A stretch of DNA of 37,118 nt, taken from NCBI GenBank assembly GCA_903926385.1, contig CAIYIS010000078.1:1-37118 (forward strand), in the 5' to 3' direction. Positions 595-32,200 of this stretch are shown here, piece after piece. Within the stretch, counting starts at the first letter, position 1. Each line of letters opens with the position of its first letter. The position numbers and the translations under genes were made by a program. The DNA is from an uncultured Bacteroidota bacterium. GTDB taxonomy: Bacteria; Bacteroidota; Bacteroidia; 2-12-FULL-35-15. Below the pieces are notes generated by a model. That model was not told where the DNA came from, made no database searches, and saw only the letters and a list, made by a program, of their open reading frames with translations.

Positions 595-975
595 CGTAAT
601 ATCACAATTCTTACCCCAAAAAAGCTAATTTCCCCTCCCGTTTTCCCATTTTCCCATTTTCCCATTTCACCCTTTCCCCTTCCCCCAATCAACAACCACC
701 AATCAACAATCCCTCTCCCCCTATTCGTAAATTCGTATTTCGTAAAGCCCCCCCAATCACCTATCACCAATGCCAAATCCCCCTCCGTGTTACTCTGTGT
801 CACCACAAAAGAAAGCGATAATAATTACGCCCAAAAAATAATTAGATATTAGATTTAAGTATTGAGACATGAGATTTGAGATTGCTTCGATGAGATGGCA
901 ATGACAAAATGAAATCAACCTTTAAAAAGCGAGTAAGAACAAAAACATGGCATATATGCAATGTTTTCTCTCACT

Positions 976-1004
976 TTTGTATGAAAAAATCTTTACTAAA
1001 TTTG
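976..1004 (+). promoter_or_regulatory. Candidate Bacteroidota promoter (-33 TTTG, -7 TAAATTTG)
   Basis: TAAATTTG at 997-1004 matches the Bacteroidota -7 consensus TAnnTTTG, and TTTG at 976-979 lies 17 bp upstream, slightly shorter than the usual 19-21. Transcription would begin near 1010, which is the ATG preferred here for the first membrane protein, so the mRNA could be leaderless or nearly so. Inferred from pattern only. Confidence 0.4.
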
Positions 1005-1009
1005 CACAA

Positions 1010-2881: not shown

Positions 2882-2915
2882 ATGATGAAGGTAAGTTTCT
2901 ATTATTTTTAATTGA

Positions 2916-6477: not shown

Positions 6478-8239
6478 CAAACAACTTTTCATTCTCCTTT
6501 TACTGGTGCTTGGTTTAAACGCCAACACCCTGTGGAATCAGTACGCTGTAGATGATGAAATAGTGATGTTGGGAAACACCTACGTTCAAAAAGGCATTCT
6601 TGGCATTCCCGATATTCTTTCTCACGATTTCTTTTCTGGTGTAAAGGGCATCGATCAGATTGGTTTGTCGGGAGGGCGTTACCGACCTTTTGCTCTTGTT
6701 GTATTTGCATTCGAATATCAATTATTCGGAGCCAATCCTTTTGTTTCGCACCTCATTAATATTTTACTTTTCGCCTTACTTATTACCTTGCTGTTTCACG
6801 TTCTTAAAAATTACATTTTTAAAGAACAACATTATTTGTTTGCCTTCATCACTTGCCTGCTCTTTGTGGTTCATCCCATACATACAGAAGTGGTGGCCAA
6901 TGTGAAAAGCCGAGACGAACTTCTTTCGTTTATTCTTATTCTTGTCTCCCTCCTTGCTGTGATTCGAAACATCGAAAAACGTTCGATTGCGTTTCTAATC
7001 TCTGGTTTAGTTTGCTTTTTTCTTGCCTTACTCACACGCGAAACAGCAGTAACCTTCATTGTTATTCTTCCAATGTTGCTGTTTTATTTTCTGAAGCAGA
7101 ATATAAAAAAGTCGATTTTATACACACTGCCATTGGTCGCTGTATTTATTGTTTATCTATTCATTCGTTTTTCGGTTATTGGGTTTAAAACATACAGCAT
7201 CGAAACCGATGTTCTGAACGACCCATATTTATTCGCCACCGCATCTCAGGCATTTGCTACTAAAATATTTGTGCTGCTTAAATACCTCATTCTTCTTTTT
7301 ATTCCTCATCCTCTTTCGTCTGATTATTCGTTTAATCAAATTCCTTATGTCAATGTTTCTTCTATCCAGTTCATGCTTTCAGTTATAGTATTAACAGCTC
7401 TTTTGATAATAGCCGCAATTCAATTTAAAAAGAAAACCATCCTATCGTTTTCTGTTTTCTATTTCCTAATTACCATTTTTCTGGTTGCAAACTTTGTGGT
7501 TAATATTGGGGCACCTCTTGCCGAACGCTTGTTGTTTCAACCTTCTCTGGCTTTCTGTTTGGTTATGGCTTCGGGTTATATTCTGCTTCAATTTCGGTTA
7601 CGCTGGCTTGCGAACAGTCTGCTGGTAACACTTCTGATTTTGTTCTCAGTTAAAACCATAGTCAGAAACAGTGAGTGGAAAAACAACGAAACACTTTATC
7701 TGGCCGATGTTATTTCTGCTCCCAACAGTGTACGCACTAATTTATATGCCGGCAAGCAATACATCAACAAAGCGCAACATGAAAATGACATTCAATTGAA
7801 GAATCAATATCTTGATAATGCTATTCAATGTGATAAAAAGCTTCTGGAAATATATCCTCACTATCAGGATGTGGATGTATATGAAGATTTGGGTTTGGCT
7901 TATTATTGCAAACTCGATTATTTCACTGCCGGAGATTACTGGGCTCAGGCTTTTCGAACCGACCCGAATATGCAAGGCTCTATAGAAACGGTGAGCAATC
8001 TGCTTTTTGATGAAGGCAACAAACAATACAATGCAGGAAATATTAACGAAGCCATTCGACAATATAAAAAAGCTGCAGAGGTAAATATGAACAATGCGGA
8101 GGCTTGGTATAGATTAGGCGGAAATTATTTTCTTGTAAATGATACTAAGAATGCATTTGAAGCATGGCAAATGGTGGCGAGAATTAATCCTCAGCACCCT
8201 TTCAACAAAGATGAATTCAAAAAAATAACTACACCGTAA
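6458..8239 (+). CDS. TMTC-like GT-C membrane glycosyltransferase with C-terminal TPRs, paralog 4
   Basis: 593 aa from the ATG at 6458; a TTG at 6449 in the same frame is less likely because the ATG matches the position of paralog 3's start. It overlaps paralog 3 by 20 nt. The N-terminus is very short (MNLLKNNKQ) before TM1. The Asp pair of NQYAVDD is at 32-33; GGRYRPFALVVFAFEYQLFG, HPIHTEVVANVKSRDEL, LTRETAVTF (Ser replaced by Thr), FIPHPLSSDYSFNQIPY and AERLLFQPSLAFC follow. TPR helices fill the tail (AIRQYKKAAEVN, AWYRLGGNYF). Same predicted role as the other copies: lipid-linked sugar transfer to a periplasmic acceptor. Confidence 0.8.
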   Translation: MNLLKNNKQLFILLLLVLGLNANTLWNQYAVDDEIVMLGNTYVQKGILGIPDILSHDFFSGVKGIDQIGLSGGRYRPFALVVFAFEYQLFGANPFVSHLINILLFALLITLLFHVLKNYIFKEQHYLFAFITCLLFVVHPIHTEVVANVKSRDELLSFILILVSLLAVIRNIEKRSIAFLISGLVCFFLALLTRETAVTFIVILPMLLFYFLKQNIKKSILYTLPLVAVFIVYLFIRFSVIGFKTYSIETDVLNDPYLFATASQAFATKIFVLLKYLILLFIPHPLSSDYSFNQIPYVNVSSIQFMLSVIVLTALLIIAAIQFKKKTILSFSVFYFLITIFLVANFVVNIGAPLAERLLFQPSLAFCLVMASGYILLQFRLRWLANSLLVTLLILFSVKTIVRNSEWKNNETLYLADVISAPNSVRTNLYAGKQYINKAQHENDIQLKNQYLDNAIQCDKKLLEIYPHYQDVDVYEDLGLAYYCKLDYFTAGDYWAQAFRTDPNMQGSIETVSNLLFDEGNKQYNAGNINEAIRQYKKAAEVNMNNAEAWYRLGGNYFLVNDTKNAFEAWQMVARINPQHPFNKDEFKKITTP

Positions 8240-8243
8240 AATC

Positions 8244-10034
8244 ATGAATATGCTCTCCGGAACTATTGTAATCAATAAAAAGCGTCAGCTCCTTATTCTT
8301 TTGCTGATAGCGTTTGGACTTAATGTAAATACACTTTTCAACGAATATGCTATGGACGATGTGGTGGTACTCACCAATAATTCTTTGGTTCAAAAAGGTG
8401 TTAAAGGTATTCCTCAGATTCTCACTACCGACTTTTTTTTCGGAATAGAAAATAAAAAGAGCGACCTGTCGGGCGGGCGCTATCGTCCCGTTGCATTGGT
8501 TACGTTTGCCCTCGAATACCAGCTTTTCGGGGCCAATCCTTTTGTTTCTCATTTAATAAGTGTTTTACTTTTTTTACTTCTCGTAGCACTTTTATTCAAA
8601 TTTCTCAATAACTATATTTTTAAAGACCCCGATACTTTCCCCACCACGGTTCCCTTGGCATTCATTACCTGTCTTATTTTTATTGTTCATCCTATCCATA
8701 CCGAAGTAATAGCCAATGTAAAAAGTCGAGACGAATTAATCACATTTATTCTGCTATTGGTTTCAGCTTTTTCATTTATTCGATACACCGAAAATCGAAA
8801 AGCAATTCAAATCATCATTAGTTTGTTTAGTTTCTTTATTGCTCTCCTAACCCGCGAAAGCGCTGTTCCTTTCATAGCCCTTGTTCCGTTGATGGCTTAT
8901 TTCTTTTTCAACCAAACGATAAAAAAATCTCTCCTATTATCTGTTCCGTTTGCCATAGTGTTTGCAGGGTATATGGCACTTCGATTGGCAATGGTTGGTT
9001 TTACCAAAGCATCCAACCTGGATATTGGTAATGCTCCCTTTTTATATGCCACTCCTTCCGAAGCATTCGCCACCAAAGTTTTTATACTTTTTAAATATGT
9101 AGGATTGCTTATCTTTCCTTATCCGCTCTCCAGCGATTACGGCTACAATCAGATTCCTTACATTGGATTTACGTCTGTTACTTTCATACTTTCTGCTTTG
9201 TTTTATACAGTACTTATTATTTTTGCTATTTACACTTTTCGAAAAAAATCCATTTATTCGTTCTGCATATTTTTCTTTCTTATCACCATTATACTCTTTG
9301 CAAATTTTATTATTGAGATAGGTGCTCCACTTGCCGAGCGACTGTTGTTTCAACCTTCGCTTGCCTTTTGTATTCTTTTAGCTCTGCTTTATTCAAAAGC
9401 AGCGAAGCAATTTTCACTACCTGCAAAAATCATAATGCTTATGGTTCTGCTTCTGTTTTCGGCAAAAACAATCTTGCGAAACAAGGATTGGAAAAATAAC
9501 GAAACACTATATTTCACTGATGTATTGGCTTCGCCTAACAGCATTCGCCCCAATTTGTATGCAGCCAATCAGTATATCAAAAAAGCATTGAGCGAACCCA
9601 ATGAAGAATTGAAAAAAGAATATTACTCCAAAGCCATTTTGTATGACGAACGTATTGCCTCCATTCACCCCGATTTCAGGCTTCATGCCGATTTGGGCTT
9701 GGCTTACTTCGGAATAAAAGATTATTTTAATGCGGCCAGCCATTGGCTGCTTGCTTATCAGATGTCTCCTGATGATACCGACACAAGGCAGCGGGTGATG
9801 ATGTTAAGCGAAATTCTTTTTAACGAAGGAAATAATTTTTCGAAAACAGGAAACGCAACAGAAGCCATCCGAAATTATAAAAAAGCTGTGGAGCTAAACG
9901 AAAACAATGTGGATGCATGGTATAATTTATCGCGTACTTATGCGTTTATTAAAGACGAAGCCAATGCCCGAGAGGCTTGGTATCAGATGCAAAAACATAC
10001 TACCAACCCCCAACCTTATCCCGAACAGAAATAA
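8244..10034 (+). CDS. TMTC-like GT-C membrane glycosyltransferase with C-terminal TPRs, paralog 5
   Basis: 596 aa, starting 4 bp after paralog 4 stops; a second in-frame ATG lies at 8250. The Asp pair of NEYAMDD is at 38-39. GGRYRPVALVTFALEYQLFG, HPIHTEVIANVKSRDEL, LTRESAVPF, FPYPLSSDYGYNQIPY (His of FPHP replaced by Tyr) and AERLLFQPSLAFC are present. The loop before HPIHTE is a few residues longer than in paralogs 2-4 (DPDTFPTTVP). The TPR tail lacks the GGNYF and KDEF ending of the others and stops in NPQPYPEQK, so it is the most divergent at its end. It is the last gene of the apparent operon; a hairpin terminator lies 53 bp downstream. Confidence 0.8.
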   Translation: MNMLSGTIVINKKRQLLILLLIAFGLNVNTLFNEYAMDDVVVLTNNSLVQKGVKGIPQILTTDFFFGIENKKSDLSGGRYRPVALVTFALEYQLFGANPFVSHLISVLLFLLLVALLFKFLNNYIFKDPDTFPTTVPLAFITCLIFIVHPIHTEVIANVKSRDELITFILLLVSAFSFIRYTENRKAIQIIISLFSFFIALLTRESAVPFIALVPLMAYFFFNQTIKKSLLLSVPFAIVFAGYMALRLAMVGFTKASNLDIGNAPFLYATPSEAFATKVFILFKYVGLLIFPYPLSSDYGYNQIPYIGFTSVTFILSALFYTVLIIFAIYTFRKKSIYSFCIFFFLITIILFANFIIEIGAPLAERLLFQPSLAFCILLALLYSKAAKQFSLPAKIIMLMVLLLFSAKTILRNKDWKNNETLYFTDVLASPNSIRPNLYAANQYIKKALSEPNEELKKEYYSKAILYDERIASIHPDFRLHADLGLAYFGIKDYFNAASHWLLAYQMSPDDTDTRQRVMMLSEILFNEGNNFSKTGNATEAIRNYKKAVELNENNVDAWYNLSRTYAFIKDEANAREAWYQMQKHTTNPQPYPEQK

Positions 10035-14243: not shown

Positions 14244-17200
14244 TTATTTTATTAACACCAATCTTCTGCTCAGGCTTCCCTGATCGGTTACTATTTCTAC
14301 CATATACACTCCTGCATCAAGCGTACTCGAGTCGAATGTAAATTTATGTTTCTTCATGCCTGCACCATTCTTTTCTTCAGTTCGTGCATCTCTTACACTT
14401 TGTCCAAGCGTGTTGAACAAATAAATATTGATAGGCGTTTCTACCGAAGTACTGAACTCAATAGTGAATTCGTTGATTGCAGGGTTAGGATAAATAAGCA
14501 CATCTTCCAGCGCAGCTGTTATCTCGTCAATGCCGGTATGTGTTACATGCACATTGATTACCGTATCCGAACTGCAACCCTGAGCATTGGTTCCGGTAAC
14601 TGTATACGAAGTGCTGACAGCAGGCGAAGCAATTACTGTAGGGCCTGTGGTTACGTTCAGTCCTGTAGGCGGAGCCCATGAATACGACACCGCATTATAA
14701 GCAGTCAATGTAACCGAGCCTCCAAACACACACCCTACAGAATATGTATTGGCAGTAATCAGAGGAGCAGGGTTAATAGTCAACATAGCTGTATCCGGCA
14801 CAGAGTTTCCGCACAATAAATTATTATCGGCTACATAATACATATACGTTCCGGCAACAGTTACCCCCGGAGCAAACGAATTACCACTTGCCAAATAATT
14901 CAGCAAAGTAACATCGCTATACCATTGAGGATTGGCACCGGTAGAAGTAAGCACACCCGAACCTCCTGCACACAATGTAGTGTCGTGAGCCACTGGTTTG
15001 GCAGCCGACTGGTTTATGGTGAGCATAACAGAATCTGCACCCATGCTCGTACAACCCGCCACATTATCGGTTACATAATATACATACGAGCCGGACGCTG
15101 TTTGTCCCGTAGCGTAGGTGTTTCCAGTTCCCACCTGTGTGGTGAGTGTGGCATTGCTATACCAACTCACATTCGTTCCGGTGGATGATAAACTCGGAAT
15201 AACAGTGCCCGTACATGCCGAAACATTATTGGCCACAGGAACCGAAGGCACAGGCAAAATAACCAGTTGAGAGGTATCTGCTGTACTTCTGCAACCCGAA
15301 GTAGTGTCTATTTGTGTTACAAAATACGTATACGTTCCCGGCAATGTTTGTCCCGTAGCAAACGAATTTCCGTTAAACACTATAACATGAGCTGTATCGT
15401 ACCATTGAACATTTGCTCCAAGCACAGTAAGATTAGGAATTACAGACGATGCACATACAGTAGTGTCGAGAGCAACTGGTTTTGCCGGCAAGAAATCAAT
15501 TATCATATTTACCGAATCAACCGGGCTCACACATCCTGTTATCGTGTCGGTTTGTGTTACATAATATGGATAAATACCCGGCAATATATGTCCGGTATTA
15601 TACACATCTCCTGTATGAACAAGGTTCATGGAAGTGTTGTACCACCGCACATCTTGTCCGTGGTAAATTAAAATGGCAAGCGCACTGCGGAAACAGATTG
15701 CAGTATCGTTCACACTCGGTATAGCAGGAGTCTGATGTATGGTCAACGAAACTGTATCCGTTAATCCGGCAGGACATCCCGCTACATTATCATTCACATA
15801 ATAAGTGTACACACCAGCCGTTGTTTGTCCGGTTGGGAAATTAAATCCGGTGTTCACCAATGTTGTCAGCGCTGTGTCGCTATACCAGTTTACAATATTT
15901 CCGGTAGTAGCTACTAAATCCGGTATTGCACCTCCGCTACACACTACTACATTAGCCACTGCAGGCGCTGTGGTTGGTTGTGTATTGATGGTGAGAGTGG
16001 CAGTATCTACCGGACTTGCCAAACATCCCGGCAAACTATCTGTGATGTAATACGTATAAGTACCTGCCATTGTTTGACCGGTAGCAAATGTAGGGCCTAC
16101 ATTAACAAGTGAAGTTAATCCAGCATCGCTGTACCAATGAATAATAGTACCTGCCGAGGCAACCATATCAGGCACTGTAACACTTGTACACGAAACCACA
16201 TTAGCTACCACAGGAGGATTATTCGGTTGAACACTGATAACTAAAGAAGCCGTATCTGCATAACTCGAACAACCGGTTACTGTATCTACATCTATTACCT
16301 GATACACATAAGTTCCCGGTGTATTGATTCCGGTAGCAAACGGACTTCCTGTTCCAACAAGAGTTGCACTTGCATCGTACCATTGTAAATTAGTTCCGGT
16401 AGCAGTAAAGTCGCTTACAGGACTTCCGAAACAAACAGAAACATTAGCTGCAACCGGTGTTGCCGGAAGTGCATGTATGGTTAAATTAACCGAATCGTAT
16501 GCACTTTCGCAACCGTTCACGGTTACAGTTACTGTGTAATTATACACACCCGGCAATGTTTGTCCGGTAGCAAATGTATCCAATGTAGAAACTACCACCA
16601 TGGCTGTATCGTACCAATTGATGTTAGAACCTTGAACTATCAAATCAGGTGTGGATGTACCAAAACAAACACTGTGACTGGAAGCCACAGGCGCTGTCGG
16701 TACTGCTTTTATAGTAAGTGTATCAATTGCTAACGGACTTTGAATTCCGTTTACAGTTTGTGTAGCGTAATAGATATACGTTCCCGGAAGTGTTTGTCCG
16801 GTTGCAAATGGATTACCTGAGAAAACATTTGTGGTTAGCAATGAATCTGCATACCAGTTAATGTTTGTTCCAACTGCTGATAAATCAGGAACTGCATTTC
16901 CGGCACATACCACCTGACTCGTAACCGCAGGTGCTCCCGGATAAATAACCAGAACTACTGTATCCGGTGCACTTTCGCAACCATTTAAATTTTGAGTTAC
17001 ATAATAAGTATAACTGCCCACCGCAGTCTGACCGGTAGCAAATGTATCAGAAGTAGAAACTACTACCATTGCTGTGTCGTACCAGGTAATGTTTGTTCCG
17101 GATGTGATCAAATCAGGAGTAGGTAAACTGTATGCCACCGAAACATTGTTAGCTACCACAGGAGGAGTAAAGTTTATGGTATATACTAATGATGAAACCG

Positions 17201-20200
17201 GGCTTGTACATCCGTTTACCGAATCAGTAACATAATATGAATACGTTCCGGCTGCCGTTACTGATGGTGTAAACGGACTGCCCGTATGCACCAATGCCGT
17301 AAGCAATGAATCACCATACCAGTTAACATTTGTTCCGGTTGCTGTTAATGCAGGATTGATGTTACCAAAACAATTGGCCACATTACCGGATGTTACTGGA
17401 GCAAGCGGAATAGCATTGATGGTAAGGGTAACTGTGTCGGCAGGACTTGTACAACCATTTATGGTTGACGAAACCGTGTATGTATAAATACCCGCATTCG
17501 TTTGACCGGTAGCAAATGTATCAGTGTTAGACACGGCTACCATAGCTGTATCGTACCAAGTAATGTTTGTTCCTGATGTAATCAAGTCAGGAACTGCACT
17601 TCCATAACATACCGTCTGATTAGCTGCAACCGGTGTTGCCGGAATTGCATTGATAGTTAAAGTAACCAGCGTAGCCGCACTTGTAATATTATTTTCAGTT
17701 TGATTTACATAATATGTATAAGTGCCAACGGCAGTATTTCCTGTAGCAAACGGACTTCCTGAATACACAAGATTGGTTAATAATGAATCGCTGTACCAAT
17801 TAACATTTAAACCAGTTGCTGTTAGATCTGGAACCAATGTTCCGAAACAGATAGTCTGGCTTGGTGCTGTTGGAGCCACCGGATAAATAGTGAGAACAAC
17901 TGTATCCAATGTACTTTCACAACTATTCATTGTCTGACTTACATAATACGTATATGCACCCACTGCTGTGAGGCCCGTTGCAAAAGTATCGTTAGTCGAA
18001 ACGTTTACCATAGCAGTATCGTACCAAGTAATAGTTGTTCCCGCAGCAATCAAATCTGGAGTTGGAGAACCAAATACCGAAGAAACATTATTTACCGAAA
18101 CAGGAGGAGTGAAATTAATAGTAAACACCACTGTTGCCATAGGGCTTGTACAGCCGTTCAAGGAATCGGTAACATAATAAGGATACGAACCTGCTGCTGT
18201 TTGCGATGGTGTAAACGGACTGCCCGTGTGAACAAGTGTTGTCAACAAAGAATCACTATACCACTGCACGTTTGTTCCAGTGGCAGTAAATGCAGGAGTG
18301 GCACTACCCAAACAGATTGCACTATTGCCGGAAGTTGTCGGTGTAAGTGGAATTGCATTAATAGTCAACACAGCTGTATCAGCAGGGCTCTCGCAACCAT
18401 TCACAGTTTGAGTTACCGTATAGGTGTAGACACCCGGGTTAGTTTGTCCTGTGGCGAATGAATCGTTTACCGAAACGGAAACCATAGCTGTATCATACCA
18501 AGTAATATTTGTTCCGCTTGTAATCAAATCAGGAATAATACTTCCAAAACATACTGTCTGGTTGCCTGCCACAGGTGTTGCAGGTATAGCATTTATTGTT
18601 AATGTAACCACGGTTGCAGCACTTATAATATTATTTTTAGTTTGGTTTACATAATACGTATAAGTACCAACGGCAGTATTTCCTGTTGCAAAAGGACTTC
18701 CGGAATAAACAAGATTTGTTAATAATGAATCGTTGTACCATTTAATATTTAAACCTGTCGCTGTTAAATCAGGAACAGAAGTGCCGAAACATAAAGTCTG
18801 GCTTGGTGCAGTTGGAGCCACCGGATAAATGGTCACCACTGCTGTATCCAATGTACTTTCGCATCCATTCAAAGTCTGACTTACATAATAGGTATAAGCC
18901 CCTACCGCGGTTTGACCTGTTGCAAAAATATTTGCTGAAGAAACAACAGCCATTGCAGTATCGTACCATGTAATATTGGTTCCCGCAGCGTTCAAGTCCG
19001 GTGTTGGACTTCCGAACACAGAAGACACATCGCTCACCGAAACAGGTGGTGTTAAATGGATGGTGAATACAACCGTTGTATAAGGACTGTTACATCCGTT
19101 TACACTTTGAGTAATATAGTAGGTATATACTCCCGGAGCTGATACTGTTGGAGTAAACGAAGCTCCCGTAGCTACCAATGTAGTCAGTGTTGAATCGCTA
19201 TACCATTGAAGATTTGTTCCTGTTGCGGTAAATACAGGATTCGACTGCCCGAAGCAGATATCGGCATTACCAGATGCAAGAGGCATTGCAGGTATAGGAT
19301 AAATGGTTAATGAAATCGAATCAGCCGGACCTTCGCAACCGAATGTTGTTTGTGTTACGTAATAAGTATATGTTCCAACTGCGGTTTGTCCTGAGTTAAA
19401 CGAAGCTCCTGCAAACAATAAAGTTGTTAGAGTAGAATCAGAATACCAATGCAAATTGCTTCCGACTGCTGTAAGCGGAGTAATCGGCTGTCCGAAACAA
19501 GCAGTAGCATTAGTAGTAACCGGTGCCAATGGAACTGGATTAATAGATAACACTACCGAATCAGGCGTGCTTGAACATCCGGTAATAGGGTCGGTTTGTG
19601 TTACAAAATAAAGATAAGAACCTATTGCCGTTTGTCCGGTATTGAATGAACTGCCCGTATGAACAAGTGTCATCGATGCATCATACCACTGAATATTGTT
19701 TCCGGTTGCGGTTAATGAAGGAATAGAATACAACGCACATACAAACACATCAGGAGCCACCGGGGGTGGTGTGAAATGTATTGTTAAGTTAACTGTATCT
19801 GCCTGACTTTCGCATCCTGTTATCGTATTGGTTTGTGTTACATAAAAAGTATGTACCCCCGGAGCCGTTATTCCAGTTGCAAAAGGACTGCCTGTACCTG
19901 CCAACACTAATGCTGTATCATACCATTTAATATTAACACCTGATGCAATCAAGTCTGGAGTAGAACTTCCGAAACAGATAGCCGTATCGGTTGAAACAGG
20001 TGTTGCAGGCAGTGCATTTATCGTAAGTGTAACCGCCGTTTGAGGACTCTCGCAACCGTTTACAGTCTGAGTAACCGAGTATGAATAAACTCCCGCTAAT
20101 GTATTTCCTGTTGCAAATGGACTGCCTGTATGCACCAACAACGATGCGTCATACCATTGAAGCGCTGTACCTGTAGCTGACAAATCTGGTATCGTTCCGC

Positions 20201-23200
20201 CAAAGCAGGCGTTTTGATTTGCAGAAACAGGTGCCGATGGAATAGCATTTATTGTTAATGTTACCACGGTTGCCAAACTCTGAATATTATTCACGGTTTG
20301 TGTTACATAATATGTATAGACTCCTGGTGCTGTTTGCAACGTAGCAAATGGATTTCCTGAATACACCAAAGAAGTGAGTGTGGAATCACTGTACCATCTC
20401 AAATTAGCTCCTGTTGCAGATAAGTCCGGAATTGTGGTTCCGAAGCAGGCTGTTTGATTCGAAGCAACAGGGTAAATCGGATAAATAGTCACAGTAACAG
20501 TATCAAGTGTACTTTCGCAACCATTCATAGTTTGCGAAACATAATATGTATACTGTCCGATGGATGTTAGTCCTGTTGCAAATGTATCATTAGTTGAAAC
20601 TACAACCATTGCAGTATCATACCAAGTAATGTTAGTTCCTGAAGCAATTAAATCAGGAGCAGGAGAACCCGATGGTATGGAAATATTGCTCACCGAAATC
20701 GCAGGTGTGAAATAAATAGTGAATACCATTGCCACAGCAGGACTTGCACAACCATTCACATTTTGTGTTACATAATAAGTATATACACCTGGATCCGTTT
20801 GAGACGGTGTGAACGTGTTTCCTGAATTAACAAGTGTGGTTAACGACAAATCGCTATACCAGTTAACATTTGTGCCAGTTGCCGTCCACAACGGATTGGA
20901 CTGACCAAAGCAGATAGAAGCATTTCCTGAAAGAACCGGTGCTGCCGGTATCGGATAAATAGTAAGCAATACAGTATCGGCAGGCCCCTGACATCCTCCG
21001 GCAGTTTGAGTAGTCAGATAGGTGTAAGTTCCAACAGCGGTCTGTCCTGTTGCAAATATATTGCCGCTCGACAACAAAGTCATGGACATATCATACCATT
21101 GAACTCCTGTGCCGGCAGCTGTTAGTGAAGGAACAGAGAATCCGAAACAAGCACTCGCATCTGCGGCCACCGGTGCAAGCGGAATTGCATTGATGGTTAG
21201 TGTTATTGGGTCAGGAACACTTTCGCATGATGTTGTACCGTCTGTTTGTGTCACAAAATAAGAGTAAGTACCAACCGCTGTTTGTCCGGTATTATAAGAA
21301 TTTCCACTGACCAGATTTACCATAGATGAACTATACCACTGAACATTTGTTCCTGTCGCGGTTAGTGCCGGTATGGTTAAATTAGAACAAATAGCCACAT
21401 CAGAATTTACAGGAGGAGGTGTAAAGTTAATGGTTAACGAAGCTGTATCCCATAAACTCTGACATCCTGTTAATGTATTCGTTTGTGTAGCGAAGTAATT
21501 ATAGGTTCCCGGTGCGGTAACTCCTGTTGAATATGGACTGCCTGTACCAATTAAGTTACCAAGAGAATTAAACCAATTTATATTATTCCCCGTTGCAACC
21601 AAAGATGGTGTTGCGGTTCCAAAACATGAACTTGTATCTGAAGCTAGAGGCGTTGACGGTAGTGCGTTAATAGTAAGATTTACATTAGTGTGCGGCCCTT
21701 CGCAGCCATTCACGGTTTGAGTTACCGTGTAATTGTATACACCAACTGCTGTATTTCCGGTAGCAAACGGACTACCCGAGTGAACTACAAAGGTAGTATC
21801 ATACCATTGAACATTTGTACCAGTTGCTGTTAAATTTGGTATAGTTCCACCTACACATGCACTCTGGCTTACTGAAACAGGCGCAAGAGGGATTGCGTTA
21901 ATGGTTAACGTTACTATAGTAGCCGGACTCGGAATGTTATTTACGGTTTGGGTTACGTAATACGTATAAACTCCAACTGCCGTCTGACCCGTTGGGAATG
22001 TACTTCCCGTATGAACAAGTGTAGTCAGTAAAGCATTGCTATACCAATTAATATTAGCACCTGTTGCAGTTAAATCAGGAACTGTATTACCAAAACAAAC
22101 CACCTGATTGCTTGCAACAGGAGCAAGTGGATGTATCGTCAATGTTACAGTATCCGGTGTACCTTCGCAACCATTCATGGTTTGAGTAACGTAATAAGTG
22201 TATGCTCCGATTGCTGTTTGCCCCGTAGCAAATGAATTACTAGTTGACACAAGAACCATTGCGGTATCGTACCAATGAATATTGGTACCGGCAGCAATTA
22301 AATTAGGAGTGGCTGAACCAAAAGCGACTGACACGTTATTCACTACAACCGGAGGTGTATAGTAAATGGTAAACACAACTGTTGCAGCCGGACTACTACA
22401 TCCGTTCAAAGTTTGAGTAACATAGAAAGTATAAACCCCTGCGGCAGTTTGCACCGGTGTGAACGAATTACCGGTATGCACCAAATTAGTCAAACCGGCA
22501 TTGCTGTACCAGTTTAAATTAGTTCCCGATGCAGTGAATGTTGGATTGGACTGACCAAAACAAATCGATGCATTACCTGAAGTGGATGGGGCAACAGGAA
22601 TTGGGTATATATTAAGTACCGCTGTATCGGCTGTACTGGAAGAACAACCTGCTGTACTATCTTTCACGTAGAATGTATAAGACCCTACTGCTGTAATGCC
22701 TGTATTATATATTCCTCCCATATGAACCAGATTGGTCAGTAAGCTATCGTTATACCATTGTATAATAGTTCCGGTGGATGTTAATGCAGGAACAGACTGA
22801 CCAAAACAAGCATTTACATCACTCGCGGTTGGTTGAGTAGGCGTAGAGTTTATATTTAAATGCACCGTATCGCTTTGGCTTACACAACCACTTGCACTGT
22901 CTTTCTGAATTACATAATAAGTATAATTACCAATCGCTGTTTGACCAGTTGTGAAAGGATTACCAGCAAACATAAGCGAAGTTAAGTTTGCATTAGCATA
23001 CCATTTTACCGAATCGGAACCTGAAGAAGCAGCTACTAAATCAGGCACAGCATATCCAAAACAAGCATTCTGATCGGCTGATAATGGGCGTGCCGGCAAT
23101 GGTCCTATAGTTAAATGAACAGTATCCGCATGACTAGCACAACCCAATGCGGACTGAGTTACATAATATATGTAATTACCTACCGCTGTCAATCCTGTAT

Positions 23201-26200
23201 TGTATGGACTTCCGCTATGAACAAGAGTGGTCAATGCTGCATTACTGTACCACTGAATATTCGTTCCTGTTGTGGTCAGCAATGGTGTTGCTTGTCCGAA
23301 ACATATTAAATGATCAGGAGCCACCGGTGTAGATGGAATCGGATTAATGGTAAGAATAACCATTTTGGCTGTACTTTCGCAACCATTTAGTGTTTGTGTT
23401 ACATAGAATGTATCCACACCAACTGCTGTCAGTCCTGTGTTGTATGGATTTCCTGAATACTGTAATGTCATGGATGAATTATACCATTTCAAATTCGTTC
23501 CTGTACCTGTTAATACAGCAGGTGCACCTCCAAAACAAGCTGTTTGATTGCTTGCTGCCGGTTGAGGAGTAAAATGTATTGTCAATGTAGCAGTATCTCT
23601 CGGACTAATACAACCCAATAGCGAATCGGTTTGTGTTACATAAAAATTATAAACACCAGGAGAGGTTAAGCCCGTAACCAATGGGTTTCCATTTTGCAGG
23701 AACACCAAAGCCGAATTGTACCATTTTATAGTATCACTTCCTGTGCCTGTTGCCGATAACGAAGGTGTAGTAGAACCAAAGCAAGAAGATAAATCAGTAG
23801 CTACAGGTTTACTTGGCAATGCATGAATAGTTAATACCGCTGTGTCGGCAGGGCTCTTCGGACAACCTGTTGTACTATCCGACACATAGTATGTATATGT
23901 TCCTGCAGCTGTTAAGCCCGTATTATAAGGACTTCCCACATGCACCTGATTAGTTAAAGCAACATCTGAATACCACAATTGTATTGTTCCTGTTGAGGTC
24001 AATGCAGGTACTGCATTTCCAAAACAAACGGATTGATTACTTGCCGTTGGCATCACAGGGGCATTATTAATATGTAAGGTTACCGTGTCCTTGCGACTTT
24101 CGCAGCCATTTATGGAATCAGTAGCGGTTACATAAAAAGTGTAAGTACCGGCTGCTGTTATTCCGGTATTATATGGAGAACCTACATGCTGAAGCACCAT
24201 TGCCGAATTGTACCATTTAATAGTATCGCCCTGATTGGCTGAAGCTGTGAAAGCCGGAATTGGATTTCCTTCACATTCGCTCACATCGCTTGATGTAGGA
24301 GGAGTTGGAGGAATAGAATCAATTGTCATTGTAACTGGAATAGTATCAACAGCATTTAACGGATCGTTAGAGTTCAAATAAATTGAAAAATTATGCACAC
24401 CAGGGCTTTGTCCGGCTTTATAAAACATTGCTGTAACATTTGTACTACCACCTGCAACTGTAGTTCCTGACTGAGGATTGAATACAACAGTGTTTGAATA
24501 AACAGGAGCATTAGGTGGTGTAATAACAGTGTTGCCATTCAGAGTTCCATTATTTCCGAAAGAAGTAAGATCTTGAGCTGTGCCATTATTAAAATTCCAA
24601 TACCCTTTTAATCCTGCCTCGTTACCCACAGCCTGATTGTGCATTGAATTAATAATTTGAGATTGTGTTAATGCATAATTATACACTTTCACCTCATCAA
24701 TCCTTCCATTAAAAAATCTGCCAGGATAGTCAGTTGCACCTATGGCAAGGTTTTGAGATACCACCGTTGGAGTAATACCTAAGGTACCGCTTACCGGAAC
24801 TCCATTCATATAAAGTGTAACCGAAGTTCCATTTAACACACAAGCTATGTGATTCCATTGATTTAATACGGCTGCAGGTCCTGTACTCGGAACGAAGTCA
24901 TTGCACCATGTAGCCATACTTGGCAATCCGTTACTTTGAATTGAAAGTAAGAAAGACTGTCCGGCTCCCCAGCCCCACCATCCGCAGCTTCTGTTACCCC
25001 ACGATACAATTCCGTTGTATGTAGCATCAGGATAGGAAACAGGATAAATCCATGCTTCAGCAGTCATCACGCTGCCTGTAGGAAGGTTGACAGAATTATT
25101 ACTAATGTAATCTCCGTTTCCATCAAATGAGGCACTCATACCATTAGTAGTACTTAAATCCCAGTCCAGGTTACTACCTCCATTGGTGTTACAAACGTTT
25201 ATTTGTTTTGCGATCGAATCTTGACAAATGGTAAAGTGTACATTTAGTGAATTTGGACTATGACATTGCTCCGGCTTCGGATAAGCAATGCCATGCAAAC
25301 ATACATGCTGCACAATACTATTACTTATGAATGTGAGTGTATCAACAAAAGTTCCTGCAGTTAAAGGAGCAAATGTAACTTGAAGACTGGCAGAATCGCC
25401 CGGAATTATTGTATAGGTTGTATGATTAACAGAATAAACGCTCAGTTGATTGGTGATATTGGTTATTCTTAAGGTATCGCAACCCGAATTGTGTATCATC
25501 AGGGAATGAACACTAGTAGAATAAGTCATAATCGAATCCATGTTCAGACAATTAGCTGAAAGATTCATAACAGGAGTTCCGTTAACATGCAATGTTAAAG
25601 GAATAGTGTCTAACGGACTTAATGGGTCGTTTGAAGTAACATAAATACTTGCATTGTATGTTCCAACAGCAAGTCCGGTTGAATTAAATCCTACCAACAC
25701 ATTTGAAGAGCCCCCTGCTGATGTGGTGTCGGCATGAGGATTCAGAGTCATCCAAGGAACACCTGTATTAGCACTATAGAAAAGAGCATTCGCCATTAAA
25801 GTCGCTCCATCGGTTGAAGCAACCCACCATCCTGATGAAACACTGCTTGAAGGAGGGAACATTCCTAAATCGACAACTCTTGACGAACCAAATGTTTTGG
25901 TTGCTACTAAAGGTCGTCCGTCCGTCCAGTCTGCAATTCTTGTGGCACCAGCATCTACTGTAAAAGAGTTTGCTCTGAATGATGAAGAACCACCATTAAA
26001 GGTGTTCACATTTTGCATAATCGGATGGCCAGTTTGATAAACCGTTCCAAGACTTTGCGGGCCTCCACTAGTGGTACTTGAAGAATTACTGATACACCAA
26101 TAATGACCGGTACTATACCTGCCGGAAATCGGTGTAGTTCCTCCAACAGCAAACACCCCGGTAACTAAACCTCCTCCAGCATCCACATAATCTGCCAAAT

Positions 26201-29200
26201 TATTTCCCAGTAAAGTCGAGTTTGCAAAGTTATAATCACCCCACACTAACACAGCATCGTATTGCATTAGTTGAACTAGAGTAGGTGTTACATTCTGACC
26301 AAAATAAGTATCCACAAGAGTGAACCTACCGGTAGCAAGAAGCTTACTTTTTACATCATTTACTTCAGCGGTATTATCCGCACCTATCAGTGCTACTTTG
26401 ATTTGAGAACTTCCGTTCCCGGACAACTGAGCATAGAGGTTGGAACCTCCGGTATTACTAATATGCAGAGTATCTATTATAGAATCGGCACAGGTAAGGG
26501 TTACATCAAATGAAGTAGGATTAAAATTAATTATTGGTCTTGCATAGCCTTTACCGGTTAAACAAATTTTCTTTGTTACATCACTATTGAAAATTGTAAT
26601 TGTGTCAGTAAATGTTCCAACTGCAACAGGATTGAAGGATACATACAACAAGGCTGAATCTCCGGGAGCGATAGAAGATACTGCGTAATTAACCGTATAA
26701 AGTGTGGTTTGTGTTGTGATATTGGTAATATTCAATACATCACAACCCGTGTTTTTCATATAAACTGAATCGAGGCTAGATGTAAATTGCATAATAGAAT
26801 CGAGGTTCAGGCAATTTTGTGAAACCGCAATATGCCCCACCCCAACAACAGTCATTGTTGCCGGCACAGTAATACTTGGATGAAGTGGATCATTAGAAGT
26901 AATTATTATAGGATAATTGTAAACTCCATTGTTCAAACCCAAACTATTAAAATTTAATTGAACTGTCTGATTTGACGAAGAATTAACTGTACCAGAGTTA
27001 CTACTTAGTGATAAACCCGGCGACCCCACACTTACCAAATAATCTTCTTCTTCACCATACCAACCGCTAAGACCTCCACAAGGAGCAGGAGCAGAGCCAT
27101 TGGTCCAGTCTATAATTCTCATTCTTGTCATTCCAAGTGCTGCCGACATTGGAACGTTAATCGTGAAATTTGTCAAATTATTTGAAGTATAAACATTATT
27201 GACCATTCGTTCTGCCGCATCAAACACTCCGTTTCTGTTCCAATCTACCCAAACTGAAATGTATGAAAAACCTCCACTTCCCTGCGACTGTATAGTGAGT
27301 GTGTAAGAGGCGCCAGGTGACTGAGAAACTATTGCAGCAGGATAATAATTTACCCCTGCTCCCACATTACTTGTGAATCCGGCATCTACAGGGGCCAAAA
27401 CATTTACATATCCACCAGAAGTGGTTACACTATTAATGTAAGAATATCCATTAGATGGATACATCGTGGGTAAGCAATAGCCCGAAGGAGGAGAACTAGA
27501 GCCTGTTCCACCATTAGCGCTCCAGTTGAGCACACTTCCACCTGTATTGTTTATAACAAGAGGATAGGAAAGTGAGTCGCCACAAGCAATGGTAACATTA
27601 ATAGAATCAGGATTAGTTGAAATGGTCGGCATAGCCCACGATTTTCCGGAAAGACAAATTCTGACCGTGGTATCATTGTTCAGAATTGTTAATGTATCAA
27701 CAAAAGAGCCCACTGTTGTTGGAGCAAAGGTTGCAATTAATTTAACAGAATCACCGGGAAGGATATTGAATGAAGTTTGATTTACCGAAAATTCACTCAA
27801 CTGATGAGTAATATTGGTAATATGTAACGTATCGCAACCTGTATTTTTTACATAAAGTGAATCTTTGTGAGTGGTATATTGCATGATTGAATCAAGATTC
27901 ATACATGTTTTAGTAACTGCAATATGACCAACACCCACCACATTCATGGTAACAGGAACGGTAATGAATGGATTAAGTGGGTCGTTGGAAGAAATTGCAA
28001 TCGGATAACTGTATACTCCGTTATTCAACCCTAGACTATTCAGATTAACTACTACAGTTTGAGAACTATTCGCATTTAGTGTACCACTTGTTGGGTTCAT
28101 ACTAAAGCCTGTAGAATTGATTGTAATATCGTATTCTTCTGTTTCACCATAGGTGTAACCTGTGCAATAATTACCTGCACCAAGTGTAGATGCATAGACA
28201 CATCTAACCCTTACTCTTGTTTTACCCAATGGGGCATTAGCTGGAATCGTAACAGTGGTGCTGAATAAAGCGGTACTGGCACTTGGGGAAGCATAAACAA
28301 ATTCTCCAGCATCAGCATAACTGCCATTATGGTTGTAATCAATCCAAACACCAAAACCTTGAGCGTATGACGAACCCGACTGCATAGTCATAGTATATGT
28401 ACCGCCTTTGTTTACAGTGGTGGTTGTACTCAGATCATAAATATAATTATTTGCCTGACCATTGCATCCGGAATTAATTTTGCTGAGGGTATTAAATGTA
28501 AACCGATTTATATAATCTGCTGAACCACATCCCGAACTGTATGTCGGTATACAGTACCCTGTAGGGGAATTACTATTAACAGCAAGCCAGTTTAGTACAC
28601 CTTGCCCGGTATTGTTGACAGTGAAGGAAGCAGTAGTAGAATCTCCGCAAGCAAGGGTTACATTTATTGAAGTTGGATTGGTTGATATTGTCGGCATTGC
28701 AAAAGCTTTACCTCTCAAACATACACGTTTTGTAACATCGTTATTAAGAATGGTAAGTGTATCAATAAAAGTTCCAACTGTAGTAGGAGCAAACGTTACT
28801 CTCAGTTTTGCCGAATCGCCAGGAGCTATGTTGAATACTGTTTGGTTTACCGAATACGCACTCAGCACATGTGTAATGTTAGAAATATGTAATGTATCAC
28901 ATCCTGTATTCCTTATGTAAAGCGAATCTTTACGGGTAGTGTTTTGCATAATCGAGTCCGGATTCATACAATATTTCGACAACACGATTGTTCCATGTCC
29001 GGAAACAGTAATAGAATAAGGCACCTGGTAAGGATTATTAACAGGGTCGTTAGAAGCAAAGGTAAGATTACCCGTATAAACACCCGCTGTTAAGCCTGCT
29101 GAAGAAAAACGAACTGTAACTGTTGTCGAATTTCCGGCACCGATAGTACCAGCATACGAAGATAATGTAACCGCACCTGATATTTTAACCGTATAATCTT

Positions 29201-32200
29201 CGAACTGTCCATACGAAACATTATTGCAGGGCTGGGGAGCTGAATAACCTGAATACTCCGAACCTACACGCATTCTTAGGGCTTTGTTAACTAGAGCATT
29301 GGCGGGAATGGTAACATTAACAATATGCAACCTGTTTGGCAAAGTATTTAAATTACCATTCATTACTCTTTCACCTACCTGAAATATTCCATCATCATTG
29401 TAATCTATCCATGCACTCACATATTCGGCATAGGATGTTCCGGTTTGAATGGACAATGAATATGTTTGTCCGGGATTAACAAAAGTACTTTGTGTGGCTG
29501 TATAATTCTGATATCCTTGAGTAGCATTTCCTGTTGTATTATTTATCGTTCCAAAAGTAACATTATAGATTCCCATGTTGCAGCAAGTTGCCGTAGTTAT
29601 GGGTGAACAGGAGGCTGCTCGTGGCAAGCCGGTTGTGAAGTTTGGATTTTGAACAGTAGTTGTATAATTCAATGCACTTCCCCCGGTGTTAACGATCATT
29701 AATGGTAAAGAAAGAGAATCGGCACAAGCCAATGTTACGTTAAACGATGTGGGCGATGAGGTTATTGTTGGTGCAGAATAGGCTTTTCCGATTAAACAAA
29801 TTGTTGTGTCCAACACATTGGTGTGAATAGTAAACGAACCATTATAAGTTCCTGCAAAAGTTGGAGCAAACTGCACTACCACACGTCCGGAACCCCCTGG
29901 AATAATTGATGTTGGTGCCGATACTACGGTAAACTGAGAAGGTGTGATGTTGGTACTAGTAATATGTAATGTATCGCAACCTGTATTGGTAATTAATAAT
30001 GAGTCTCTGCTGGTGGTGTAAGTCATTATCGAATCCAGATTCAAACAAGGCAGAGATGTATTGTACAAAGAGAATTGCATGTGAGCCAAGCCTGCTACTG
30101 TCATTGTTGCATTATAAGTTACAACAGGATTTAGAGGATCATTGGTGGTTATATTAATTGGATAATTATAAACACCGGCATTGAGTCCGGCACTGTTAAA
30201 ATTAAGTTGAACTGTTTGTGTGTTGGAAGAGGTAACGCTGCCCGATGTCGGTACGATTGATAAGCCTGGTGAACCTATCTGAACAAGGAAATCCTCTTCT
30301 TCTCCATAATATCCACTCAAATTATCACAAGCATTGATAACGGCACTGTTCGCCCAATCAATTACTCTCATTCGTGTGAGTCCAGGAGAAGCGGAAACAG
30401 GCACATTGATTACAAAATTCTGCATAGCGTTACCGGAATTAAAACTAGTAACCATTCTTTCTCCAACTTCGAAAGTTCCGTTTCTGTTCCAATCAACCCA
30501 GATGGAGAAATAAGCTATACCACATGAGCCTTGCGCCTGGGTATGTACCGTGAATGAAGAACCCGGTGCCTGAGCAACGATGGCAGAAGGATAATAGTTT
30601 AGTCCCGAACCTGCATTGCTTCCAAAACCTCCATCAACAACAGAAACTATATTTGTAGTACCGCCGGTGGTGGTAAGTGTATTGATATATGAACAACTGT
30701 TGGAATAATACATATTTGGTAAGCAATAACCTGAAGGAGGACTGCTGAAATTTGCACCAGAAGTAGCAGTCCAGTTAAGTGTTCCTCCGCCAGTATTTGT
30801 TATCATCAAATTGGCAGACCCTGTTCCACCACAAGCAACCGTAACGCTGGTGGAGAGGGGACTTAATGAAATAGTTGGTGCAGCGTATGCTTTTCCGATT
30901 AAACAAATGGTCGTATCCACATTATTTGTATAAATGTTCAGATTAGCATTGAATGTACCTGCAGCAAGTGGTGAAAAGGAAACAAAAACATAGTCGCTTC
31001 CTCCGGGAACAAGGTAAGCCGGGGAGGACACCACTGAAAACAAAGTTGAAGATATTTGAACGCTATCCATAAAAAGCGTATCGCATCCACTGTTTGAAAC
31101 AATTAATGTATCCATACTAGAAGTATTCGTCATTATTGAATCCAGATTCATACAAGAAGAGGAGGAGTTGAATAAAGAAACCTCCAGATGCGGATATCCT
31201 GTAACTGTTAAATTGCAATTAACAGGAATGGAGGGATTGGCAGGGTCGTTAGAGTTCAAGTACACTGTGGAGGTATATGTCCCAGGTAACATTCCGGTTG
31301 AATTAAAATGAATTGGAACATTTACAGAACCCGATGCATTCAAACTTCCACTTACAGGGGGCCCAGTTGCAAGCCAAACGGGAGTTCCATTGATGGCGTC
31401 CAAAAATGCATTCATAATATTTAGTGTATTTGCATCATTTATGTACCCTCCATTGTCAGAAGCATACAACAAGTAATAAATTCTTGTGTTAGTATTTAAT
31501 CCTGCAATATCATCCCAATCATTATCGGTATTGGTGTCGTAAGTATGATTAAGCGAAGAGTTGTCCTGAACAATGATAAGGTGATTGATGGAAGGATCTC
31601 CAGCATTGTACACTCTCTTCACAAAACCTTTGTAAGTGTTGCCACATCTAGAAACAGTGAGTAGGGTGGCATCCATATTACCACCTCCATCTGCTCCATT
31701 GTTTCCACTGATATTAAAATCACCAACGTTATTAATATCGGCTGCCATGACAAATAACCCCGGATATTTTACTGTAAAGTACTGCCCTCCTATACCAAAT
31801 GCGGCATCAGATACTATCGCATTATTGGAATAATTCAAATTAGTTCCCAGATTAGTTCCCAAATAGTTTCCGCCATCGTACATATCATTTCCGCCATCAT
31901 TAATATTATTCGAAAAATCCCCGTCAGTAAAATCATATCGATTTGGTATCACACCATTCACTGCTGAATAATTTTGATTGATATTGGCAAGCACGACTGA
32001 CAGAGGCCCTGTAACTGTGCAGGGAGAAATACTATAGGAGAGCGAACCGGGACCTCCGTTTTGAATAGACAATTGCTGCACGGCAGAGTCGTTACAAACC
32101 AAAGTTTGGTTAAACGTTTGTGGAGAAGCGGTGATGGATGGAGCCAATGCGCTTACGCCCGTTAAGCAGATTGTTGTGTCGGCAATATTGCTGTAAACTG

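Follow-up and report, generated by a model that had tools for sequence, protein, structure and literature searches.

A putative disulfide staple between neighbouring Ig_7 domains, and a candidate second joint type, in a giant secreted protein of Bacteroidota

The closest solved relative of the array analysed here is GhpA (Grappling hook protein A) of Aureispira sp. CCB-QB1, a heptameric hook protein with tandem Ig-like domains (PDB 9flp, 9fls, 9flu–9fly and 9g8b; Lien et al. 2024, as cited in PMC13319060). The domain of the array is Ig_7 (PF19081, 'Ig-like domain CHU_C associated'); Pfam describes it by a single-domain model, whereas the Cys pair considered below is a property of neighbours. 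According to the parts of the cited texts available to us, the interface of the adjoining V-set and C2 Ig domains of Siglecs is made by a disulfide that links them (PMC10122656), the giant Ig-repeat adhesin of Mobiluncus mulieris is a surface adhesin with many Ig-like repeats and covalent cross-links (PMC10619420), cytophagalysin has one predicted disulfide, joining its catalytic domain to an Ig-like domain (PMC11674741), and a survey of isopeptide bonds mentions accompanying disulfides (PMC12617251). By word count, neither disulfide nor cysteine occurs in PMC8286594. Among the titles and abstract openings listed, a sample covering few subscription papers, we saw none describing disulfides that join domains in arrays of Ig_7 or of GhpA.

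The giant protein and its cysteine census

The window, i.e. the whole stretch of 37,118 nucleotides that was analysed, carries the following features:

14244..33569, minus strand: giant secreted protein, one ORF, 6441 aa; it comprises an RCC1-like propeller, Ig domains of the HYDIN/ASH type together with GEVED and laminin-G domains, 40 Ig_7 domains, a PKD-like cap and a T9SS C-terminal signal
25224..25226, minus strand: C2782 codon, within the final HYDIN-type domain ahead of the array
14757..24314, minus strand: array of 40 tandem Ig_7 (PF19081) domains, 39 junctions
about 14541..14768, minus strand: PKD/Ig-like cap domain (by reading)
14256..14495, minus strand: Por_Secre_tail (PF18962), type IX secretion C-terminal signal

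The array matches Ig_7 with 608.4 bits at 16245–24332 and 153.3 bits at 14247–16244 (curated cut-off 27.3), and the C-terminal signal matches PF18962 with 44.6 bits (cut-off 27), as in type IX secreted surface proteins. Ig_7 matches were found in all 36 genomes searched from the window's taxonomic family (the order-level search gave the same 36) and in 94 of 296 genomes sampled across its phylum.

Hereafter, C1 and C2 are the first and the last conserved Cys of an Ig_7 domain, and d and d+1 are consecutive domains. A previous sequence-only reading had counted both Cys in 30 of the 40 domains, a figure that proved exact on recount: C1 is missing only in domains 9, 16, 23, 27 and 31, which keep C2, and C2 only in domains 10, 17, 24, 28 and 32, which keep C1; the 24-residue spacing quoted for C3801/C3825 is likewise correct. 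The array continues past domain 40 into the cap, where C2 is present. At 39 of 39 junctions, C1(d) and C2(d+1) are present or absent together: both are present at 34 junctions, which we call stapled, and both absent at five, which we call unstapled:

21897..22361, minus strand: unstapled junction 1, domains 9 and 10; Ala replacing C1, Ile replacing C2, spacing 24 residues
20247..20711, minus strand: unstapled junction 2, domains 16 and 17; Pro replacing C1, Ile replacing C2, spacing 24 residues
18591..19055, minus strand: unstapled junction 3, domains 23 and 24; Val replacing C1, Ile replacing C2, spacing 24 residues
17649..18113, minus strand: unstapled junction 4, domains 27 and 28; Val replacing C1, Ile replacing C2, spacing 24 residues
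16707..17171, minus strand: unstapled junction 5, domains 31 and 32; Ala replacing C1, Ile replacing C2, spacing 24 residues

Coupling between cysteines of neighbouring domains

The sequence-only reading had proposed that C1 and C2 of a domain bond to each other by default and that a C2(d)–C1(d+1) bond would rigidify or bend the fibre at the five sites, an arrangement in which, on paper, every Cys of the 40 domains finds a partner. We compared these pairings across Ig arrays, with near-duplicate frames removed ahead of the profile rounds (1857 reduced to 1810) and short or overlapping domain matches discarded (1488 reduced to 1473). The state of the Cys places is known at 995 of the resulting 1003 junctions, the other eight being dropped. 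C1 tracks C2 of the next domain: both are present at 908 junctions, C1(d) only at 8, C2(d+1) only at 34 and neither at 45 (phi 0.68, Fisher 6.9e-48). On the same junctions, phi is 0.11 for C1 and C2 of one domain, contrary to an intradomain default, and 0.11 for C2(d)~C1(d+1), so that the idea of Cys pairing across the domain boundary is supported while the particular bond put forward is not. Over the score cut-offs, phi ranges from 0.68 to 0.96 for C1(d)~C2(d+1), from 0.10 to 0.18 for C2(d)~C1(d+1) and from -0.08 to 0.17 for the intradomain pair. The presence or absence together of a Cys pair across the boundary, as in an Ig tandem with interdomain disulfides, has 42 exceptions among the 995 junctions.

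Judged by reading, many of these 42 junctions, though not every one, have a PKD-like, split or partial domain in them.

Since the seed of the profile came from the window, high-scoring subsets lean to the window's array family; at 45 bits or more, the counts are 327/0/2/23 (phi 0.96), with 19 of the 23 'neither' junctions coming from that family. When each 50%-identity cluster is represented by a single junction, phi is 0.42 (p 4.2e-10). Without the family, the coupling of C1(d) to C2(d+1) is still found (734/8/34/26, phi 0.55, p 1.7e-25), with phi 0.72, 0.67, 0.64 and 0.81 at 15, 25, 35 and 45 bits. The C2(d)~C1(d+1) pair does show coupling in some subsets: at the cluster level at 25 bits, its phi is 0.36 (p 1.8e-3) versus 0.56 for C1(d)~C2(d+1), and without the window's array family it reaches 0.51, 0.66 and 0.65 at 25, 35 and 45 bits, so that at 35 bits it is about level with C1(d)~C2(d+1) (0.66 and 0.64). 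The coupling without that family comes from two loci, L061 and L062, whose two-domain modules read 'C- -C' (each domain written as C1 then C2, a dash marking a missing Cys). When both are also removed, phi drops to 0.20, -0.01 and -0.01, whereas C1(d)~C2(d+1) stays at 0.67, 0.64 and 0.81. The two Cys lost in L061/L062 are those of the C2(d)–C1(d+1) bond; the Cys retained in the module are C1(d) and C2(d+1), the very pair that a two-domain chain with a C1(d)–C2(d+1) bond should keep. The intradomain pair reaches up to 0.37 without the window's array family and 0.45 when L061/L062 are removed as well (15 bits).

Mean-field coupling analysis of column pairs (842 of the 1003 junctions, with at least 10 bits and less than 30% gaps) placed C1(d)–C2(d+1) first of 11,026 pairs (z 12.6), second without the window's array family, second again without L061/L062 (z 7.1) and first to third in four further subsets; after partner shuffling, it fell to ranks 4103–9548 in three of three shuffles. 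C2(d)–C1(d+1) ranked 96, 42 and 2987 of 11,026, and 3, 255, 5 and 600 in the four further subsets, each time under C1(d)–C2(d+1). Averaged over blocks around both Cys with the Cys columns omitted, C1(d)–C2(d+1) has a mean z of 0.17 versus -0.01, -0.06 and -0.11; the flanks alone favour this pairing only slightly and would not have decided it. In the ladders of coevolving strands, C1 falls at the A–B turn and C2 at the F–G turn, i.e. at opposite poles of the domain, and the strand positions agree; the parallel A–G ladder gave a weak signal and was left unused. Since C1 and C2 lie at opposite poles, the two Cys of a C2(d)–C1(d+1) bond would be about two domain lengths apart. We therefore rejected intradomain default bonds combined with that bond, on junction coupling, column-pair ranks and the effect of removing L061/L062; even counting the '-C C-' runs of two found at seven loci, which fit it, this arrangement is very improbable.

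Our preferred explanation, which we regard as probable, is that a C1(d)–C2(d+1) disulfide staples Ig_7 junctions and that the five sites represent one ancestral unstapled junction, since multiplied, of a second joint type. The two conserved Cys of a domain would not bond to each other; C1, in the A–B turn at the C-terminal pole of domain d, would instead meet C2, in the F–G turn at the N-terminal pole of domain d+1, and their oxidation would staple the junction. The five sites would then be junctions without the cross-domain bond, missing on both sides, and not places where a C2(d)–C1(d+1) bond rigidifies or bends the fibre.

Coupling is blind to which chain a Cys belongs to, and with GhpA, the closest solved relative, being a heptamer, C1(d) could bond C2(d+1) of a neighbouring chain in a multimeric fibre like the GhpA hook. 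The next strongest cross-domain pair, direct linker neighbours set aside, is d:14–e:1, which adjoins the covalent linker, and the Cys pair is kept in two-domain modules; both points speak for a bond within one chain while being compatible with one between chains, which we judge very unlikely.

The five unstapled junctions

In a FastTree tree, the five domains lacking C1 group together (support 0.98), as do the five lacking C2 (0.97), and the 19 unstapled junctions of the window and its orthologues form one clade (SH-aLRT 93), which rules out five independent co-losses. The five pairs counted by the sequence-only reading are therefore all there, but as copies of one ancestral pair and not as independent cases. 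Orthologous arrays hold one (L042, L043), two (L041) or four (L038, L040) unstapled copies versus five in the window; L039 has two, its array being cut by a contig end. Were the five events independent, the chance of the pattern would be about 1 in 658,008 (40 choose 5), but as a single event it is only about 1 in 39; because the five pairs share one origin, significance must come from other arrays. There, matched absence recurs, 26 of the 45 'neither' junctions lying outside the window's array family. Counting against the explanation, a tree of 33 unstapled junctions (at least 20 bits) and 185 of 486 stapled ones (at least 25 bits) needs six changes, of which three are forced by well supported branches, so that independent losses are few.

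In the window's array family, the C1 place of unstapled junctions holds Ala, Val or Pro in 17 of 19 and the C2 place Ile or Val in 19 of 19. The spacing between the two Cys places is 24 residues or less in 19/19 unstapled versus 0/159 stapled junctions of the family; outside it, among junctions with the needed columns, the figures are 5/9 versus 2/280 at 25 bits or more and 5/12 versus 7/368 at 15 bits or more. Judging from these sequences, the unstapled sites are a conserved second joint type, with small or hydrophobic residues in place of the Cys pair and a linker shorter by about two residues.

Alternatively, all bonds could be intradomain, each of the five sites having two free thiols in a decayed copy that repeat expansion has multiplied. 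The shared origin of the five copies fits this account, as do an intradomain coupling of 0.24–0.45 in some subsets without the window's array family and the 136 of 188 domains found alone that have both Cys, a count that goes against the staple rule. Decay is nevertheless very improbable given the matched loss at 45 junctions, the location of C1 and C2 at opposite poles, and the short linker and Ile/Val kept in 19/19 copies across arrays that are 57–81% identical.

The unstapled joints may act as bends or hinges of the rod, spaced 7, 7, 4 and 4 domains apart. They could instead be kinks, tight and fixed, that hydrophobic packing holds in place with a short linker, a proposal that is compatible with the staple. 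The Ile/Val at the C2 place and the shorter linker would suit such kinks; AlphaFold confidence near an unstapled joint is as high as elsewhere, but per-residue confidence says nothing on flexibility. We consider fixed kinks a real possibility, if somewhat doubtful.

Array ends and relation to known systems

For C1 of domain 40, the proposed partner is C2 of the cap: in the orthologous caps among those listed (L038, L040, L042, L043), C2 is present and C1 absent in 4/4, although the window's cap has one extra Cys that these four lack. For C2 of domain 1, the candidate partner is C2782, the Cys of its motif being present in 6/6 orthologues read. Consistent with the rule, 38 of 152 runs of at least three domains end 'CC -C', and 11 runs of two, across seven loci, read 'C- -C'; against it, eight runs of two read '-C C-' and nine '-C CC', so that these runs and the two-Cys lone domains require partners in neighbours missed by the profile. 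The end effect is mixed: C1 is missing in 76 and C2 in 31 of 262 last domains (21 and 19 of 92 at 25 bits), C2 in 25 but C1 in 49 of 270 first domains, and C1 in 30 and C2 in 22 of 721 internal domains.

GhpA matches the four-domain profile (E 4.5e-282) and has both Cys in consecutive domains within one stretch of its sequence. In fold comparisons, its eight entries top the lists for both AlphaFold models (pTM 0.77–0.78), so that the arrays are homologous in sequence and fold. The model of domains 18–21, all stapled, fits all eight cryo-EM entries better (8.4–9.6 Å) than that of domains 8–11, which contains one unstapled joint (11.8–13.0 Å), a difference in favour of the preferred explanation. 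This likeness concerns the arrays only; from homologous stalk domains it does not follow that a heptameric hooked filament is formed here. Judging from the parts of those papers available to us, the Siglec disulfide differs in occupying one junction of an animal receptor and not being repeated along an array (PMC10122656), and in the Mobiluncus adhesin the ester, isopeptide and disulfide bonds lie within domains, the interdomain linker being called flexible (PMC10619420).

Ig_7 arrays of Bacteroidota might form a continuous covalent ladder, its stiff and bendable stretches being encoded by a second joint type of more than one origin, copied and spaced by repeat expansion, a generalisation to which we give slightly less than an even chance. 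Two conserved Cys that resemble an ordinary intradomain disulfide would then reflect a rule about neighbouring domains, and sequence would tell locked from unlocked joints in a very long bacterial fibre. Given the spread of Ig_7 in the window's taxonomic family and phylum, such a rule may have a broad reach. Should the ladder extend to GhpA, it would count as a design principle for bacterial grappling hooks.

The giant protein and its Ig_7 array

The cysteines considered here belong to a single giant protein of 6441 residues, which lies beside a group of shorter frames:

14244–33569, minus strand: ORF of the giant protein
24333–33569, minus strand: HYDIN-type domains, 5′ of the Ig_7 array
947–10034, plus strand: five neighbouring frames of 595–644 residues

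The protein comprises an RCC1-like propeller, HYDIN/ASH-type Ig, GEVED and laminin-G domains, 40 tandem Ig_7 domains (PF19081), a PKD-like cap (identified by reading and profile search) and a type IX secretion tail. When the array was cut at the conserved Trp, giving domains of 75–85 residues, our recount of the first (C1) and last (C2) conserved cysteines matched the census of the sequence-only reading exactly. Three of the five neighbouring frames were scanned: TPR repeats lie towards the C-terminal end of each, and two show below-cut-off matches to the TMTC O-mannosyl-transferase family; judged from sequence, the frames are possible glycosyltransferases.

The five window domains lacking C1 form one clade, and the five lacking C2 another. 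The paired loss recurs in the orthologous arrays (57–81% identical to a four-domain query over the best segment), where each such pair lacks both cysteines: one pair each in L042 and L043, two in L041 and L039 and four in L038 and L040, for five in the window. These 19 'unstapled' junctions form a single clade. By their sequences, the five sites are one old pair multiplied along with the higher-order repeat, and count as one event inside the window. On a tree of 218 junctions, the unstapled state requires six changes, three of them forced by well supported branches; the small number of independent losses counts against the pairing rule described below.

Cysteine coupling across domain boundaries

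A genome scan supplied arrays from 77 loci, and genomes of the window's family and phylum supplied more. Reading them with an iterated profile that took the window as its seed (C1, column 13; C2, column 65) gave 1473 domains in 204 frames and 1003 junctions in 161 frames. C1 of a domain (d) is coupled to C2 of the following one (d+1): both are present at 908 junctions, C1 only at 8, C2 only at 34, and both are lost at 45. The opposite bond, C2(d)–C1(d+1), which the sequence-only reading had proposed at the five sites, couples no better than the intradomain pair over all junctions.

Phi coefficients of cysteine presence (all junctions; then at 15, 25, 35 and 45 bits)
All arrays
C1(d)–C2(d+1): 0.68; 0.83, 0.85, 0.87, 0.96
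C1(d)–C2(d): 0.11; 0.17, 0.08, −0.01, −0.08
C2(d)–C1(d+1): 0.11; 0.13, 0.18, 0.16, 0.10
Without the window's family
C1(d)–C2(d+1): 0.55; 0.72, 0.67, 0.64, 0.81
C1(d)–C2(d): 0.20; 0.37, 0.27, 0.14, −0.04
C2(d)–C1(d+1): 0.20; 0.28, 0.51, 0.66, 0.65
Without the window's family and L061/L062
C1(d)–C2(d+1): unchanged
C1(d)–C2(d): 0.24; 0.45, 0.37, 0.27, −0.02
C2(d)–C1(d+1): 0.10; 0.10, 0.20, −0.01, −0.01

When junctions of like pattern were clustered at 50% identity and each cluster was counted once, phi was 0.42 for C1(d)–C2(d+1) (p 4.2e-10), 0.03 for C1(d)–C2(d) and 0.20 for C2(d)–C1(d+1), and 0.56, 0.02 and 0.36, respectively, at 25 bits. The C1(d)–C2(d+1) rule is broken at 42 of 995 junctions, several of them because inserted sequence apparently splits the Ig_7 domains of four loci (L055, L056, L059 and L066).

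The window's own family contributes 19 of the 23 junctions that have lost both cysteines at 45 bits; over all scores, 26 such junctions lie outside it. The coupling of C2(d)–C1(d+1) outside this family is due to two loci, L061 and L062, which together hold six two-domain modules reading 'C- -C': the first domain has C1 but no C2, the second C2 but no C1. For an isolated pair, this pattern is what a C1(d)–C2(d+1) chain would be expected to leave, the inner bond being kept and the outer cysteines gone. The modules sit between other kinds of sequence.

In a coupling analysis of a two-domain alignment (842 rows, effective 549), C1(d)–C2(d+1) was the strongest of 11,026 column pairs (z 12.6; next pair, z 7.7). 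It ranked second without the window's family (z 7.1), and second again when L061/L062 were left out too; shuffling partners abolished it in three of three trials. The two intradomain pairs ranked 6978 and 2199, and C2(d)–C1(d+1) ranked 96, 42 and 2987 in the three unshuffled data sets. In four smaller subsets without the window's family, C1(d)–C2(d+1) ranked 1, 1, 3 and 3, and C2(d)–C1(d+1) ranked 3 and 5 with L061/L062 but 255 and 600 without them.

Antiparallel ladders coevolve at 4/26, 14/50, 23/65 and 53/74, which we read as strand pairs A–B, B–E, C–F and F–G; they place C1 in the A–B turn and C2 in the F–G turn. The strands of the AlphaFold model fit this placement: in domain 8, strand 12–15 ends at C15, and C69 lies between strands 56–63 and 74–81. 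The two cysteines are therefore at opposite poles of the domain. From strand rise, they would be roughly 20–35 Å apart, with C1(d) facing C2(d+1) and C2(d)–C1(d+1) about two domain lengths apart.

Array ends and short runs

The rule predicts last domains without C1 and first domains without C2. C1 and C2 are missing, respectively, from 76 and 31 of 262 last domains, 49 and 25 of 270 first domains, and 30 and 22 of 721 internal domains; at 25 bits the end excess is unspecific (last, 21 and 19 of 92; first, 21 and 18 of 138). Among 152 runs of at least three domains, 38 end 'CC -C', some of these ends being PKD-like caps in orthologues of the window and in other arrays; 3 begin 'C- CC' but 16, contrary to the prediction, '-C CC'. 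Runs of two either fit the rule (20 'CC -C', 11 'C- -C', 1 'C- CC') or run contrary to it (9 '-C CC', 8 '-C C-', 5 'CC C-'). Of 188 domains found singly, 136 carry both cysteines. Putative neighbours missed by the search would have to lie behind many of these exceptions. In eight loci (L136, L137, L139, L140, L142, L143, L144 and L147), short 'CC CC -C' runs, whose last domain lacks C1, recur along one protein.

C2782, in a HYDIN-type domain 5′ of the window's array, could be a partner for domain 1; a Cys is present there in six of six orthologues read. Cross-domain pairing may continue into these HYDIN-type domains. Among them, a three-Cys type and a type with one Cys near the A–B turn apparently alternate. 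At the other end, an extra Cys beside the cap's C1 place (C6280, codon 14730–14732, minus strand) counts against the rule; it has no match in the four orthologous caps compared.

The unstapled joint and a proposed segmented rod

Within the window's family, 17 of the 19 unstapled junctions have Ala, Val or Pro in place of C1 (the other two have Ser and Gln), and all 19 have Ile or Val in place of C2. Counted from the C2 place in domain d, the C1 place in d+1 lies 24 residues on in all 19, against 25–29 residues in the 159 stapled junctions, where both cysteines are present. In other arrays at 25 bits, a spacing of at most 24 was seen in 5 of 9 unstapled junctions versus 2 of 280 stapled ones; at 15 bits the figures are 5 of 12 versus 7 of 368. 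Those five are L084, L090, L095, L100 and L059. Thus, the 24-residue spacing noticed by the sequence-only reading marks the unstapled joint.

AlphaFold models of domains 18–21 (all stapled; pLDDT 97.6) and 8–11 (one unstapled joint; pLDDT 97.4) both best matched eight cryo-EM entries of GhpA, the grappling hook protein A of Aureispira. The stapled model was closer to all eight (8.4–9.6 versus 11.8–13.0 Å rmsd), which, with one model each at pTM 0.77–0.78, hints at a different angle of the unstapled joint.

The coupling and its direction, the substituted residues and the spacing are observed; we infer oxidation, stiffness and bending as follows: the exported chain would most likely be oxidised, each domain being bonded to the next; the bonded chain would form a stiff rod; and this rod would be broken, and could bend, at bondless joints spaced at intervals of 7, 7, 4 and 4 domains.

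Among the matches listed in the open-access literature, outside which the GhpA structure paper lies, none described a bond at nearly all junctions of a long array together with a second, unbonded joint type. Disulfides between Ig domains are already known, e.g. in Siglecs (PMC10122656), as are giant Ig adhesins of bacteria whose bonds are intradomain (PMC10619420). The Siglec bond occurs singly, whereas the one proposed here would recur at almost all junctions along an array; and in contrast to the bonds of those adhesins, it would cross domain boundaries.
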